Assembly: GCF_023168145.1 (NCBI RefSeq)
Contig: NZ_BQYK01000001.1
Coordinates: 409,343-473,342, forward strand
Source of the DNA: Sporosarcina sp. NCCP-2222
GTDB lineage: Bacteria > Bacillota > Bacilli > Bacillales_A > Planococcaceae
Direction of reading: 5' to 3'
Length of the DNA stretch: 64,000 nucleotides
Below the pieces are notes generated by a model. That model was given only the letters and a program-made list of their open reading frames with translations, had not been told where the DNA came from and made no database searches. The position numbers and the translations under genes are program-made. Positions 13,198 to 19,455 of this stretch are shown piece after piece. Positions within the stretch are counted from its first letter, which is position 1. Each line of letters opens with the position of its first letter.

Positions 13198-13525
13198 GAG
13201 AAAGGGTGAATTTCTCGTTTATTCTCAGGACATCTAGGACAAGAGATTACATCTACGATTGATTCAATTTCTTGATGGTCAAAAGCATTCAGCGCGACCC
13301 GGTGCAGGCGATGATATGGGAATTCCAACGTTTAGATGAAAGGGTTGAACCGCTCGTTTATTCCTTCGAACCACTCGTATATACCCATGACCGCTCGTAT
13401 CCTCTTCCGAACCGCTCGTAGATTTCAGGTGAAAAGTACGCTCAATGATCAAAGGAATTTCTAGATGGTCAAAAGCATACAGCGCGACCAGCAGCAGGCG
13501 AAAACATGGAAATTCTCGCGTTTCA
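13198..13525. repeat. Two tandem intergenic repeat units with 21-bp-phased motifs
   Basis: This fills most of the 615-base gap 12976-13590, which holds no supportable gene. Two diverged units are visible, roughly 13198-13334 and 13335-13525. Both open with AAAGGGT, then a TCTCGTTTATTC or GCTCGTTTATTC segment, and end with GATGGTCAAAAGCAT (13274 and 13464), an AGCGCGACC block and a GGAATTC or GAAATTC stretch. The second unit also carries four copies of GAACCGCTCGT-like motifs at 13347, 13368, about 13388 and 13409, about 21 bases apart. Reading frames of 65 and 113 codons across it on the minus strand only reflect the repeat. Confidence 0.65.
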
Positions 13526-13584: not shown

Positions 13585-13638
13585 ATACAAAAAACCTGCA
13601 GGCAAACTCAAGTCACGCATGAGTTTGCCTGCAGGTTA
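13585..13638 (-). terminator. Strong terminator after the 28-residue ORF
   Basis: An 18-pair perfect inverted repeat (AACCTGCAGGCAAACTCA and its complement) with a nine-base loop, followed on the minus strand by a T run (13585-13590). Confidence 0.93.
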
Positions 13639-13656
13639 AGCTCGATCTGTGATAGA

Positions 13657-13743
13657 TCAAGGTGTATGTTTCATCATCCAGTAAACGCCGATTAGTATAA
13701 ATACGACGCAGACTACAAGTAATATTTTTGATAATTTTTCCAC
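13657..13743 (-). CDS. 28-residue single-pass membrane peptide
   Basis: A very short frame starting with GTG at 13743, nine bases after an AGGAG ribosome site that overlaps the stop of the DUF350 gene, and ending in TGA just before a strong terminator. The translation begins MEKLSKILLVVCVVFILIG and ends VYWMMKHTP: a short charged N-terminus, one hydrophobic helix of about 19 residues and a basic tail. I do not recognise the family. The 12-base spacing to the DUF350 gene, the ribosome site and the terminator all argue that it is a translated member of that transcript. It may be a small partner of the membrane protein, but that is inference. Confidence 0.6.
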   Translation of the reverse strand: MEKLSKILLVVCVVFILIGVYWMMKHTP

Positions 13744-13755
13744 TTTCAACGACTC

Positions 13756-14172
13756 CTATGAAATACTGGCACCAATGACGAACGAGAGACCTACGGAAAT
13801 GGTTAATGAAATAAATCCGACGGATCGGTTGTCCTCTTCGATTTCCTTATCAATATTGAATTTAGGCGTGAGGAACTCAAAAAGGAAGTACGCAAAAATC
13901 AGCAATACGAATCCGTACAGTCCCCAGCCGATCATTTGCGGCAGTGTGTTGTGCTGTTCGATGGAATAACGGAATATATTGGCGACACCAAATATTTTCC
14001 CGCCCGTTGCCATGGCGACCGCTAGATTGCCCTTTCTTATTTCTTCCCAGTTCCTGTATTTCGTTACTAACTCGAATAATACCATGGAAACGATGAGGCA
14101 AAGCACTACTACGCTGAAGTAGCCTGCTGTTTCAACTAAAGGATGACTCCAAAATCCTGTTTTCGACATCAA
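13756..14172 (-). CDS. yshE: DUF350 membrane protein (YshE-like)
   Basis: A 138-residue integral membrane protein with four hydrophobic segments (about 14-35, 50-65, 77-97 and 115-135), of the DUF350 family and in the position of yshE between mutS2 and lcfA in B. subtilis. The biochemical role of the family is not established. ATG at 14172 follows AAAGGAG. It is separated from mutS2 by 81 bases and followed at 12 bases by the 28-residue peptide, after which a terminator ends the transcript. Confidence 0.8.
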   Translation of the reverse strand: MMSKTGFWSHPLVETAGYFSVVVLCLIVSMVLFELVTKYRNWEEIRKGNLAVAMATGGKIFGVANIFRYSIEQHNTLPQMIGWGLYGFVLLIFAYFLFEFLTPKFNIDKEIEEDNRSVGFISLTISVGLSFVIGASIS

Positions 14173-14253: not shown

Positions 14254-16608
14254 CTATTTCAACTGAACGACTGTCACCCCGTGACCTCCCTCACCCGCTT
14301 CGCCAAATCGATAGCTCTTTACGCGTGGGTGATTCTTCAGGTAGGTTTGGATTCCTTGACGCAATGCGCCAGTTCCTTTCCCGTGGATAATCGATACTTG
14401 ATGGTAATTTGACAGCAATGCGTCATCCAAATATTTTTCCGTGCGATGGATGGCGTCTTCATAGCGCTCCCCGCGCAAATCCAGTTCGAGCTTCACGTAT
14501 GAATCTCTTCCTTTTACGGAAGCGGAAACGACCGGTTCCTTCTCTTTCTCCGGTTTGCTGTATTCGAGAACGGATTGATCCAGACGCATTTTTAGTATGC
14601 CGATTTGGACAACCCATTCCTTGTCGGACACTTTTTCAACCAGCGTCCCTTTCTGCCCATATGTGACTACTTTCACTTCGTCGCCCGGCTGCAATGGACG
14701 CGGTGCCGCTTTTGCTTTCACTTTCTTCTTTTCCTCGGCAGGCATAGCGCCTTCCAGCCGTTTACGCGCTTCAATCAGTTCATGTTCCTTGACGCTTGCT
14801 CCGGCATTCAAACGGAGAGCACGTAATTCAGAGATGACTGATTCGGATTCTGACCGAGCCTCATCCACAATCTTTTTCGCTTTTTCTTTCGCTTGTTCAA
14901 CTAGCCGATCTTTCAATTGATCATACTCAGCTAACTTGCTTTCGAGCTCCTGCTTCAACTGTTCCGTTTCCAATAAAAGCTCATGTGTCCGTTCGGCATC
15001 TTTCTCCGACTGGACCCGGCTGGATTCCAGGGAAGCGATCATCGAGTCTACTTCGCCACGATCTGTGCCCGTAAATCCTTTGGCACGCTTGATGATATGT
15101 TCGCCAAGACCAAGCCGTTTTGAAATTTCAAACGCATTGCTTCGTCCTGGTACACCAATTAGCAATCGGTAGGTCGGGCTAAGCGTATCGATATCAAATT
15201 CCACACTCGCATTTGCCACGCCTGGCCGATTGTAACCGTATGCCTTGAGTTCCGGATAATGCGTTGTAGCCATGACTCTCGCACCTGTCCCGTGCACTTC
15301 ATCCAAAATGGAAATAGCGAGGGCCGCTCCCTCTTGCGGATCGGTCCCTGATCCTAACTCATCAAAAATCAACAATGATTGCGAATCGAATTTTTTCAGG
15401 ATATCAACGATATTCACCATATGAGAAGAAAAGGTACTCAAGCTCTGTTCAATGGACTGCTCGTCTCCGATATCAGCGTAGACCGAATTAAACACGGCGA
15501 TTTCAGAACCGTCCAAAACAGGAATCGGCAAGCCGGCTTGTGCCATCAAGGTGCAGAGGCCGACCGTTTTCAATGTAACGGTCTTCCCGCCTGTATTCGG
15601 TCCTGTAATGACGATCGTCGTAATGTCTTTCCCAAATTCAATCGTGTTGGCTACCGCTTCATCCGCAGGAATCAGTGGATGGCGTGCTTTGGCGAGTCGA
15701 ATGTAGCCTTCCTGGTTAACAGCAGGCTTCGTGCATTTATTAGCCGTTCCATATTTCGCTTTCGCCAATATGACATCGATTTCTGCCAGCACATCGACGA
15801 GAACGAATAGCTCATGGGCTATTTCTTGCACTTTTGCAGACAAAGCAAGAAGGATTTTTTCAATCTCATCCTGTTCTTTTGATTTCAACGTCCGAATTTC
15901 ATTGTTCGCTTGTACAACGGCGTCCGGTTCAATGAATAGCGTCTGACCCGAAGAGGACATGTCATGGACGACTCCCCCAAAATGGGATCGATATTCCGAT
16001 TTCACCGGAATAACGTACCGATCGTTTCGTATCGTGACGATCGAATCGGAAAGCATTTTAGAGGCATTTCGCCCACGTGTGTAGCTTTCCAGTTTTTCAC
16101 GCACCCGGCCTTCTTGAATGCGCAAGCTTTGGCGGATGGACCGCAGTGTACTGGATGCACTATCGAGAACATGTCCGTTGTCATCAATGGCATGGTTAAT
16201 TTCATGCTCTAGTCCCGTAAGGATTGGCAATGATTCCTTTTTCTCCATGAAATGTGGGATTGAAATATCCTCATCTTCATTAACCGATTCAATAAACTGG
16301 CGCAGGATCCGGCTGGCCCGTATCGTATTGGCGATTTCCATCAATTCATAGGCACTGAGCATACCGCCAATTTGTGCACGTTTTGCATGCGGTTTCACAT
16401 CACTGATCCCGCCCATCGGCACATTGCCTCGCACTCGTAAAATAGCCAGCCCTTCATCGGTCTCTTCTAATAATTGGACAACCCGGTCATAATCGCTGAC
16501 CGGCACAAGCCTCTCTATGTGTGTCCGACCCGCCGTGGAAGTACAATGCCCTGCCACAAGCGCTCTGACTTTATCAAATTCAAGTGTTTTCAAGACACGT
16601 TTCTCCAA
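14254..16608 (-). CDS. mutS2: Endonuclease MutS2
   Basis: A 784-residue MutS2, the family length (B. subtilis 785). Present are the MutS lever/clamp region, the ATPase core with Walker A GPNTGGKT near 335 and LLIFDELGSGTDP, a coiled coil around 510-610, and the C-terminal Smr nuclease domain (LDLRGERYEDA, then HGKGTGALRQGI). Lacking the mismatch-recognition domain, MutS2 proteins suppress homologous recombination and in B. subtilis also act on collided ribosomes. I choose TTG at 16608, giving MEKRVLKTLEFDKV in register with B. subtilis, over GTG 16629, which overlaps the polX stop. Confidence 0.95.
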   Translation of the reverse strand: MEKRVLKTLEFDKVRALVAGHCTSTAGRTHIERLVPVSDYDRVVQLLEETDEGLAILRVRGNVPMGGISDVKPHAKRAQIGGMLSAYELMEIANTIRASRILRQFIESVNEDEDISIPHFMEKKESLPILTGLEHEINHAIDDNGHVLDSASSTLRSIRQSLRIQEGRVREKLESYTRGRNASKMLSDSIVTIRNDRYVIPVKSEYRSHFGGVVHDMSSSGQTLFIEPDAVVQANNEIRTLKSKEQDEIEKILLALSAKVQEIAHELFVLVDVLAEIDVILAKAKYGTANKCTKPAVNQEGYIRLAKARHPLIPADEAVANTIEFGKDITTIVITGPNTGGKTVTLKTVGLCTLMAQAGLPIPVLDGSEIAVFNSVYADIGDEQSIEQSLSTFSSHMVNIVDILKKFDSQSLLIFDELGSGTDPQEGAALAISILDEVHGTGARVMATTHYPELKAYGYNRPGVANASVEFDIDTLSPTYRLLIGVPGRSNAFEISKRLGLGEHIIKRAKGFTGTDRGEVDSMIASLESSRVQSEKDAERTHELLLETEQLKQELESKLAEYDQLKDRLVEQAKEKAKKIVDEARSESESVISELRALRLNAGASVKEHELIEARKRLEGAMPAEEKKKVKAKAAPRPLQPGDEVKVVTYGQKGTLVEKVSDKEWVVQIGILKMRLDQSVLEYSKPEKEKEPVVSASVKGRDSYVKLELDLRGERYEDAIHRTEKYLDDALLSNYHQVSIIHGKGTGALRQGIQTYLKNHPRVKSYRFGEAGEGGHGVTVVQLK

Positions 16609-16625
16609 TGTCTTTACACTTCCTT

Positions 16626-18341
16626 TCACTTCCGTATAATGTCACGGATGAATTGTTCCAGCGGCCATGTATTGACGACCGTCTCTTTTTTCAACCATGC
16701 TTTTTGTGCGTATCGAACGCCGATGTCCATGTAACGTAACTGATCTGTCGCATGAGCATCCGTATTAATCGCTATTTTTACTCCTGCCTCCTGCTCCTGC
16801 GCCATCGCCAAATAATCAACAGCCAAATCAAAACGATGCGGATTGGCATTCAGCTCCAGGATTTTACCGTATTGCTTGGCCCATTCAATCAGTTGCGGCA
16901 CATCCACATCATAGCCTTCTCTTTGCCCGATAATTCTTCCGGTCGGGTGAGCAATCATATCAACATGGGGATTGGAAATAGCGGAATGCAGCCTCTCCAT
17001 GATTTGTTCTCTGCTTTGATTGAAGTTGGAATGGATTGATGCGATGACGAAATCAAGCTCTTCCAGCAGATCATCTTCAAAATCCAGCCGTCCGTCCGGC
17101 AAAATATCCATTTCTGTCCCGGTAAAAATTTCAATATCGGTATATTCCTCATTCAATTCATGGATTTCGGCCATTTGTGCCCTAAGCCGTTCAGGCGTCA
17201 ACCCGTTTGCCACTTTCAAGTATTGTGTATGGTCGGTAATGACGATATGCGAATAGCCTTTGTTGCGGCACGCCTCCACCATTTCACGAATCGAATAGCC
17301 TCCATCCGACCATGTCGTATGCATATGGAAATCCCCACGAATGTCAGCAAGTGAAATGAGACCGTCCAATTCGTTTGCTTTGTCGATTTCCTTGCCATCC
17401 TTTCGTAGCGATGGCGGAATGAAAGGCAAACCGAAATGAGCAAAGAATTCCTTTTCGGAATCAAACGTTAGGACATTCCCATCTTCAAGCTCAACACCGT
17501 ATTCACTAATCTTCATGCCTCGGGATTTGGCGATTTGCCTCATTCGCACATTATGATCTTTGGAACCGGTAAAATGATGGATTGCGGTGGCGAATTGCTC
17601 GTCTGTCACAAAGCGGAAATCCGCATCGACTAGATCCGTCATATCTAGCGTTACTGATAACTTCGCATCCCCGGCAGCAATCACCTCTTCGACAGGCAGT
17701 GCTGCCAGGATAGCCTCCCTGACACTGGAAGGCTTGTCCGTCACGATAATGAAATCGACGTCGCTGCTCTCCTCTTCTACGCGGCGAAAACTGCCCGCTA
17801 CCGAGAACCGTTGAATGTCCGCGATTTGGCGCAATTCCTCCTCGATGAAGAAGACGATTTGCTCAATTTGCCAAACCGGGAGTTTGCCTTTTCGCGTGCC
17901 CAATTGCTCAATTTCATGTAAGATCTTTTCTTCCGTCTTCTTACCAAAGCCGGGCAATTTACTTACTTCATTCGTTTCACAGGCTGCACGCAGCGATTCC
18001 ACGGAATCAATTCCGAGTGCCTCTCGTAATTTCGCAATCCGCTTTCCACCCAGTCCAGGGATGCGCAATAAAGGAATCAATCCTTTTGGCACTTCCTCTT
18101 CCAATTCTTTCAGCAAATCGGATTCACCTTTTTCCAGCAAATCAATGATGACAGCGCCTGTGCCCTTGCCAATCCCTTTCAAAGTTAAAATATCATCCAT
18201 TTCGGATAAACTTCTCGGGTCCAATTCCAACACATTGGCTGCTTTACGAAATGCCCCCACTTTAAAAGGATTTTCCCCAAGCAACTCCATATATAAAGCA
18301 ATCTTTTCAAACGTCCGGATGATTGTTTTCTTATTCAACAA
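16626..18341 (-). CDS. polX: DNA polymerase X with PHP phosphoesterase domain
   Basis: A 571-residue bacterial PolX: an N-terminal helix-hairpin-helix region (LKGIGKGTGAVI, PGLGGKRIAKL, LPGFGKKTEEKI), a nucleotidyltransferase palm with SSDVDFIIV and DLVDADFRF carrying the three metal-binding aspartates, and a C-terminal PHP domain beginning DFHMHTTWSDG with 3'-5' exonuclease and AP-endonuclease potential. It fills short gaps in base-excision repair. The start is one of two tandem TTG codons (18341 or 18338); GGAGGAGG lies six or nine bases upstream, and the second matches B. subtilis better. It is followed closely by mutS2. Confidence 0.95.
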   Translation of the reverse strand: MLNKKTIIRTFEKIALYMELLGENPFKVGAFRKAANVLELDPRSLSEMDDILTLKGIGKGTGAVIIDLLEKGESDLLKELEEEVPKGLIPLLRIPGLGGKRIAKLREALGIDSVESLRAACETNEVSKLPGFGKKTEEKILHEIEQLGTRKGKLPVWQIEQIVFFIEEELRQIADIQRFSVAGSFRRVEEESSDVDFIIVTDKPSSVREAILAALPVEEVIAAGDAKLSVTLDMTDLVDADFRFVTDEQFATAIHHFTGSKDHNVRMRQIAKSRGMKISEYGVELEDGNVLTFDSEKEFFAHFGLPFIPPSLRKDGKEIDKANELDGLISLADIRGDFHMHTTWSDGGYSIREMVEACRNKGYSHIVITDHTQYLKVANGLTPERLRAQMAEIHELNEEYTDIEIFTGTEMDILPDGRLDFEDDLLEELDFVIASIHSNFNQSREQIMERLHSAISNPHVDMIAHPTGRIIGQREGYDVDVPQLIEWAKQYGKILELNANPHRFDLAVDYLAMAQEQEAGVKIAINTDAHATDQLRYMDIGVRYAQKAWLKKETVVNTWPLEQFIRDIIRK

Positions 18342-18398: not shown

Positions 18399-18938
18399 TC
18401 AACTTTTATAAATATACCACCATTTTTTCACAGTCTCTGAAATGATCGGAGTATGTTCAAACATCGTATTGGCTAAAATAGAGTTATCAATGATTCCCTG
18501 CACGAAATCTATCGGAATCATGGCAAATACATAGAGAACAAAAAATATCAAAATATAGAACTCCACAAATCCTAACGCCGCTCCGCCAAAACGTGCAAGA
18601 AAACCTAGCACAGGCAAAAACTTCAGGAAATCAAACATCGATGCGATCAGCTGCAACACGAATTTCACAGCAAGGAAAATGAGGACAAAGGCAAGCAACC
18701 GGTAAAAGGTTTCATCTAAATCGATCTGCTCGACAGCCCAGCTCAGCTTCAAATTTGCGGTTACCCCTGGATAAGGAACCCATAGGACAAATTTTTCAGC
18801 CAGCGGTTTGTAGTATATGTAAGCGACAATCAGCGCAATAATGAAGCCTGTCATATGAATGGCTTGCACGACCAAGCCACGTCTGAATCCGGTGATCAAT
18901 CCTCCGAGCAGGAGGAACACAATAATTAAATCAAGCAT
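18399..18938 (-). CDS. CvpA family membrane protein
   Basis: A 179-residue protein with four hydrophobic helices, of the CvpA family (YshB in B. subtilis); the N-terminus LDLIIVFLLLGGLITGFRRG is typical. CvpA proteins were found through colicin V production and are linked to envelope stress; the molecular function is unresolved. The ribosome site before ATG 18938 is weak (GAAGGG about 12 bases away), so translation may be coupled to zapA, which ends nine bases upstream. A terminator follows at once. Confidence 0.85.
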   Translation of the reverse strand: MLDLIIVFLLLGGLITGFRRGLVVQAIHMTGFIIALIVAYIYYKPLAEKFVLWVPYPGVTANLKLSWAVEQIDLDETFYRLLAFVLIFLAVKFVLQLIASMFDFLKFLPVLGFLARFGGAALGFVEFYILIFFVLYVFAMIPIDFVQGIIDNSILANTMFEHTPIISETVKKWWYIYKS

Positions 18939-18947
18939 AAACGTCCG

Positions 18948-19208
18948 TCAACCCTTCAACTTATTCAATTCTTCTTCCAACCGTTCGATCTTCTCTTTCA
19001 ACAGCAAATAATCATGCACGCTGTTTACTGCAGTCAGAACCGCAATTTTGGCGCTATCCAAATAAGGGTTCCGGGCACTGATTTCACGCATTTTATCGTC
19101 GACCATGGAGGCAACGAGACGGACATGGCTGCTAGATTCATCGCCGACTATCGTATATGTCTGCCCAAAAATATCGACCGAAACGCGCGTCTTCTGCTCG
19201 TCTTCCAA
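18948..19208 (-). CDS. zapA: Cell division protein ZapA
   Basis: An 86-residue ZapA: a beta-rich head ([20 protein letters not shown]) and a C-terminal coiled coil ([19 protein letters not shown]). ZapA bundles FtsZ protofilaments and stabilises the Z ring. The start is TTG at 19208, eight bases after GGGAGG, which gives the family length. The longer open frame up to 19334 is not supported. It forms a two-gene transcript with cvpA and diverges from rnhC. Confidence 0.93.
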
Positions 19209-19455
19209 TAATCCGACCTCCCGATTCCGATTCAACAGGCGCTGCGGCCATTGATGATCAAATAATATGAAACAGTTCCCCAAACCGAACAGAGGAAATG
19301 GACAAGTACGGTACAGCACTCTGTACCCCATCATAACATGAAACCATTTTGGTTGTGAATAAAGGATGTGCCATCCATAGGTTCTTCTCTAGCAATAGTT
19401 ATTCCACCTTGTAGTATTGTACAATATGTCAGTAGATGGGGAAAGGAAGTTGCAA

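Follow-up and report, generated by a model that had tools for sequence, protein, structure and literature searches.

Bacteria possess small single-pass membrane proteins that serve as regulators or subunits, such as KdpF, CydX/CydS, and AcrZ. The microprotein studied here resembles these proteins, by their description, in having fewer than 40 residues and one helix and in being encoded beside larger genes, but differs from them in its neighbor, which is mutS2, with or without a gene for a DUF350 protein. It lies in the window, the 64,000-nucleotide stretch of the Sporosarcina sp. NCCP-2222 genome that was analyzed, and we classify it as a new family within a known protein kind, the bacterial one-helix microprotein. 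In searches against Pfam-A the window peptide stayed below the gathering cut-off (best match 15 of 25 bits), and against NCBIfam no match at E ≤ 1 was obtained. Likewise, 22 peptides of the genus gave a best Pfam E-value of 0.014, and none of five distant forms had a Pfam match over the cut-off. Of 44 sequences, four resembled the NCBIfam family NF047566 (SE1626 family) weakly (E = 0.0012 at best). Residues 1-26 of one Sporosarcina-type sequence aligned to its 55-position model with 15.6 bits, against a cut-off of 70, which leaves the microprotein outside the family. The DUF350/YjfL/UPF0719 family (PF03994) is encoded directly upstream of the microprotein in the window; its member is, however, a four-helix protein, and the window microprotein has no Pfam match to it. 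No paper describing the microprotein was found in a library of open-licence papers. A start-site study of S. aureus reports 43 new small frames, several of them with membrane helices (PMC13009471), and a staphylococcal relative of the microprotein could be among these.

The microprotein gene (13657..13743, minus strand) comprises 28 codons, with a GTG start at 13743 and a TGA stop at 13659-13657, and its product is VEKLSKILLVVCVVFILIGVYWMMKHTP. A ribosome site, AGGAG (13753..13757, minus strand), overlaps the stop codon TAG of the DUF350 gene (13758-13756) and is separated from the GTG by the nine bases 13752-13744. Because an in-frame TTG at 13749, two codons 5' of the GTG, sits 3 bases from AGGAG, and because the conserved start position of the genus (ATG in 60 and GTG in 7 of 67 loci) coincides with the window GTG, the GTG is the likely start in the window and the TTG an unlikely one. 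TAGGAG is found at the DUF350 stop in 51 of the 67 genus loci, and through this stop-overlapping site translation of the microprotein looks coupled to that of DUF350 in most of the genus.

An intrinsic terminator (13589..13637, minus strand), consisting of a stem of 17-18 pairs and a T run, begins 19 bases past the microprotein stop; 13637-13620 pairs with 13610-13593, after which the T's follow. Upstream of it, a smaller hairpin of 8 pairs (13641..13661, minus strand) folds over the microprotein stop codon. The 101-base stretch holding both structures folds with z = -7.0, and none of 200 shuffles did as well. Residues 7-25 of the peptide, its best 19, have a mean Kyte-Doolittle hydropathy of 2.55 and are long enough to span a membrane, while only 3 of the 629 first-start frames of 20-45 amino acids in the window reach a value of 2.4. 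As far as DNA can show it, these results bear out the first-pass annotation, which had described a GTG frame with AGGAG nine bases upstream over the DUF350 stop, one hydrophobic helix, and an 18-pair terminator just past the stop. The terminator stem comprises 18 pairs when the centroid structure is taken and 17 when the minimum-energy structure is.

In the window the microprotein gene comes last in a unit of the order zapA, cvpA, polX, mutS2, DUF350, microprotein, all on the minus strand. The zapA-like gene (18948..19334; Pfam ZapA), which likely opens the unit, is followed by a cvpA-like (yshB) membrane protein gene (18399..18938; Pfam Colicin_V), a polX-like gene (16626..18341; Pfam DNA_pol_B thumb and PHP), and mutS2 (14254..16629; Pfam MutS_V, MSSS, and Smr), which lies upstream of the pair formed by the DUF350 (YshE-like) gene (13756..14172; Pfam PF03994, E = 4.5e-36) and the microprotein. 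The DUF350 frame was listed from a TTG (14172), and an ATG one codon on (14169) is a better fit to several relatives. The DUF350 protein is predicted to form four long helices (AlphaFold2, mean pLDDT 85); a search of this fold against the PDB gave no match (best E = 2.1), a result that says nothing of function. Since operons associated with PspA-type envelope-stress proteins contain members of the DUF350 family (PMC11237479), a membrane-stress role is a fair guess and no more. On the far side of the terminator, between it and an AMP-binding (lcfA-like) gene, positions 13264-13521 belong to a dispersed, partly tandem repeat family; with a 2 kb query, 63 matches were obtained in the same genome, 61 of which are other copies (68-89% identity) spread over many contigs.

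The genus set consisted of 68 Sporosarcina genomes, all with DUF350, and the DNA behind DUF350 was inspected in every one of them. The microprotein frame was found behind DUF350 in 67 of the 68, the genome of the window included. For the 68th (G056), only 55 bases of the contig remain past the DUF350 stop; the frame is not visible in them, and the sole microprotein profile match of this genome is on another contig. Over 64 distinct genus sequences of 24 codons, pN/pS was 0.245 (pN 0.188, pS 0.768), and for the 136 closer pairs (pS below 0.5) it was 0.225. Diversity at the first, second, and third codon positions was 0.31, 0.10, and 0.53, respectively, and E2, L4, K6, L8, F15, G19, and W22 are invariant among the 64 sequences, while C12 varies once. 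The low pN/pS, the codon-position pattern, and the invariant residues mark the frame as protein-coding and subject to purifying selection. As a rule, a genome has one copy of it. So exact a fit of stop, ribosome site, start, and terminator had been judged unlikely by chance, and a conserved frame with synonymous-biased substitution had been proposed as the check in relatives; both features are present and extend beyond the Planococcaceae, so that conservation in the genus, the family, the named loci, and the Bacillus genus rules out a chance frame. At the sequence level, the proposal that the DUF350 transcript encodes a genuine small membrane protein is thereby supported.

Within the family, profile A2 gave a match at E ≤ 0.01 in 256 of 261 genomes, representing 19 of 19 genera, and a second match at this threshold in five of the 256. 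The five misses (G087-G091) all belong to one genus, g7, which is probably Kurthia; they keep DUF350 and have no microprotein frame behind it, and by eye a terminator lies directly behind the DUF350 stop. The g7 loci L149, L151, L152, L155, and L156, which have DUF350 without the microprotein, represent a natural loss experiment. G090 had been considered as a family match (E = 0.0585) and was rejected, as there is no frame behind its DUF350 and A2 gives none. Outside the genus, the microprotein was found in 45 of the 50 other family loci inspected, a non-random set of 51 genomes chosen after an earlier profile search, minus G094, that holds all family genomes with an absent or doubtful profile match. 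The genus set, the best-80 named set, and the Bacillus-genus set were selected by DUF350 alone.

Among the named loci, the best 80 of 535 DUF350 relatives all carry the microprotein behind DUF350 at a score of at least 20 bits. These 80 loci, which overlap the other locus sets, include representatives of Planococcus, Psychrobacillus, Kurthia, Jeotgalibacillus, Bacillus safensis, Anoxybacillus, Neobacillus, Rossellomorea, and Geobacillus. In Heyndrickxia the microprotein starts 154 bases past the DUF350 stop. The Bacillus genus of B. safensis (G262), which we take to include the B. subtilis group, has the microprotein behind DUF350 in 44 of 44 genomes (e.g., MEKLAKVLLAAAGIFLLIGLIYLFVS), with a pN/pS of 0.304. 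At two Geobacillus loci (L215 and L234) the frame is 54 residues long, an extra hydrophobic stretch coming first and the microprotein making up the second half. Two fused copies were rejected as an explanation of this frame because a good match is confined to the second half (41.3 and 35.7 bits, compared with 3.3 and 4.8 bits for the first half), and what we claim is a fused second helix. The class of G262 was sampled evenly with 398 genomes. Profile A3 matched in 142 of these at E ≤ 1e-4, and the wider profile A4, which was trained on forms adjoining DUF350 or mutS2, matched in 224 at E ≤ 1e-3, each time with a single match. Since the microprotein is missing in the five g7 genomes and 174 of the 398 class genomes have no A4 match, it is evidently dispensable for many Bacilli.

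Among 44 diverse sequences, L4 and G19 are invariant, F15 is conserved in 43 and L8 in 42, and a basic residue occupies position 6 in 42. Every sequence has a small residue (C, A, S, or G) at position 12 and an aromatic one at position 22. Residues 4, 8, 12, 15, 19, and 22 share one helix face. The observed conservation moment was matched by 88 of 20,000 permutations for positions 7-23 and by 536 of 20,000 for positions 4-23, in rows that derive partly from the profile search, which favors conserved positions; the genus set was not gathered in this way. Cys12 was considered as a functional residue and is unlikely to be one, as A or G takes its place in many genomes of the Bacillus genus. With fewer than 50 codons, conservation as a protein, and one hydrophobic stretch of spanning length, the product has the features of a small single-pass membrane protein, and that it is translated as such is almost certain from its sequence. 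Its N-terminus, of about six residues including two basic ones, is inferred to be cytoplasmic, and the end of the helix to be aromatic; this topology is read from charge alone, and some lineages (e.g., METLYKVL) have only a weak bias.

We consider it probable that the microprotein is a single-pass membrane protein whose conserved helix face packs against a putative membrane partner or against itself. The face formed by L4, L8, the small residue 12, F15, G19, and Y/W22 would pack on the membrane-embedded portion of a larger protein or on a second copy, and this packing would stabilize or tune the larger membrane protein. For the microprotein acting as such a helix subunit, we regard the prospects as evenly balanced. 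Where both occur, we would tentatively name DUF350 as the single most likely partner; since the microprotein has to function in genomes without DUF350 as well, it probably has a second or more general partner in the membrane.

The alternative that survives best is that the microprotein is dedicated to the DUF350 protein, as its regulator or subunit. DUF350 was matched in 247 of the 398 class genomes at E ≤ 1e-6. Of the 162 class genomes in which DUF350 matches at E ≤ 1e-40, 148 have the microprotein, a raw count in which kinship is ignored; so do 23 of the 43 at 1e-30 to 1e-40 and 28 of the 42 with weaker matches. Among the 14 genomes with strong DUF350 and no microprotein match, 11 were inspected; two of these contain divergent candidates (L344, 21.2 bits; L345, 16.8 bits) and one a similar frame (L327), and the remainder of the 11 have no acceptable microprotein frame. 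Considering the matches listed for both genes, the peptide lies downstream of DUF350, on the same strand and within 1.2 kb, in 103 of 104 genomes: the distance is at most 60 bases in 69 of them and 99-562 bases in 34; in the remaining genome, G329, it is 5.8 kb. A second, more distant DUF350 kind (33-48% identity) occurs elsewhere in several genomes (L286-L291), and the microprotein follows none of these six paralogues at other loci. Together with the overlap of ribosome site and DUF350 stop at those 51 genus loci, the co-occurrence and the bare paralogues argue for such a dedicated role. Against it, the microprotein does not occur only with DUF350, being present in 25 of the 151 class genomes without a DUF350 match; nearly all inspected loci where it has no adjoining DUF350 have it behind mutS2 (19 of 20), and the five g7 genomes have DUF350 without the peptide. 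As the microprotein persists without DUF350 and DUF350 persists without the microprotein, the distribution indicates that DUF350 cannot be its obligatory partner and is at most one partner. The suggestion of the first-pass annotation that the peptide modulates the DUF350 protein thus stands as far as the frequent co-occurrence of the two favors it, and falls where an obligatory or sole partner is meant. On this balance, we regard a role dedicated to DUF350 as rather unlikely.

The other neighbor is mutS2. It ends at most 600 bases upstream of DUF350, on the same strand, at 218 of the 219 loci with enough upstream DNA (67/67 genus, 30/30 family, 79/80 named, 38/38 Bacillus-genus, and 4/4 other loci), a further 60 loci in these sets being too short for the test; at the exception, L230, the measured gap between mutS2 and DUF350 is 0, and the genes adjoin. 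Twenty inspected loci (L312, L315-L320, L323-L325, and L332-L341) have the microprotein and no adjoining DUF350, and 10 of them come from genomes without a DUF350 match at E ≤ 1e-6. At all of the 20 except L312, where the peptide follows a signal-peptidase-like gene, 20-199 bases separate the end of the mutS2 match from the peptide downstream of it. L319, for instance, has mutS2, 77 bases, MEKLAKVLLVCCGAFFILGIIYLVFFA, and then a fatty-acid-ligase-like frame like that beyond the window peptide; here DUF350 is missing and the microprotein is retained. Thus, by gene order, mutS2 is the constant anchor of the microprotein, with or without DUF350. In three genomes of 2.4-2.5 Mb (L315, L316, and L335) mutS2 is followed by the microprotein MYKLAKVLIVVSILMLIAGVIYLFIAL or a close form, and at L315 and L316 the next frame is thioredoxin-like; the gene order at these three loci fits Staphylococcaceae.

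This neighborhood raises the possibility of a joint function with MutS2, in which the microprotein might, for instance, position ribosome rescue at membrane sites where the synthesis of membrane proteins stalls. In B. subtilis, MutS2 splits stalled ribosomes (PMC10897456), which would suit such a role, as would the position of mutS2 upstream of the pair and directly before the lone peptide. However, neighborhood alone is weak evidence, and the cytoplasmic end of about six residues leaves little for binding. All 58 genomes tested contain MutS2, among them all 33 that have no peptide match, so that mutS2 does not need the peptide. The main text of PMC10897456, moreover, does not contain the words "operon", "yshE", or "SecY", and "membrane" occurs there only in blotting passages. 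A partnership with MutS2 therefore strikes us as improbable.

The terminator invites a leader-type reading, in which a ribosome ending at the stop controls the terminator and the peptide itself has no role. By a simple scan, terminator-like stems were detected at 52 of the 67 loci of the genus, at 42 of the 45 from the rest of the family, and at 29 of the 34 named loci L203-L236. A stem whose start lies no later than the last base of the peptide stop codon, the arrangement that such control would favor and that the 8-pair hairpin over the stop provides in the window, was present in 41 of the 67 genus loci, but in just 4 of the 45 other family loci and 7 of the 34 named loci L203-L236. Since the overlap is rare in the latter two sets, the close fit between stop and terminator is mainly a trait of the window's genus; the amino acids, moreover, stay conserved, and we consider a leader function of this kind very improbable. 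Hardly more credible is a type I toxin-like hydrophobic peptide, which size and hydrophobicity would fit, but against which speak the one match per genome, the fixed housekeeping cluster, and the absence of a match to any Pfam toxin family.

A bolder reading, which we hold to be a long shot, would make the microprotein an ancient part of a MutS2 unit of the Bacilli that links ribosome rescue to the membrane. The microprotein would mark or tune a membrane site, formed by DUF350 where present and by another protein elsewhere, and collided ribosomes on membrane-protein mRNAs would be split there by MutS2. A microprotein without a Pfam or NCBIfam model shares a gene cluster with a ribosome-rescue ATPase and a DUF350 membrane protein. 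This protein of about 25 residues has been kept over much of a bacterial class, and profiles A2-A4 would allow annotation pipelines to pick it up.
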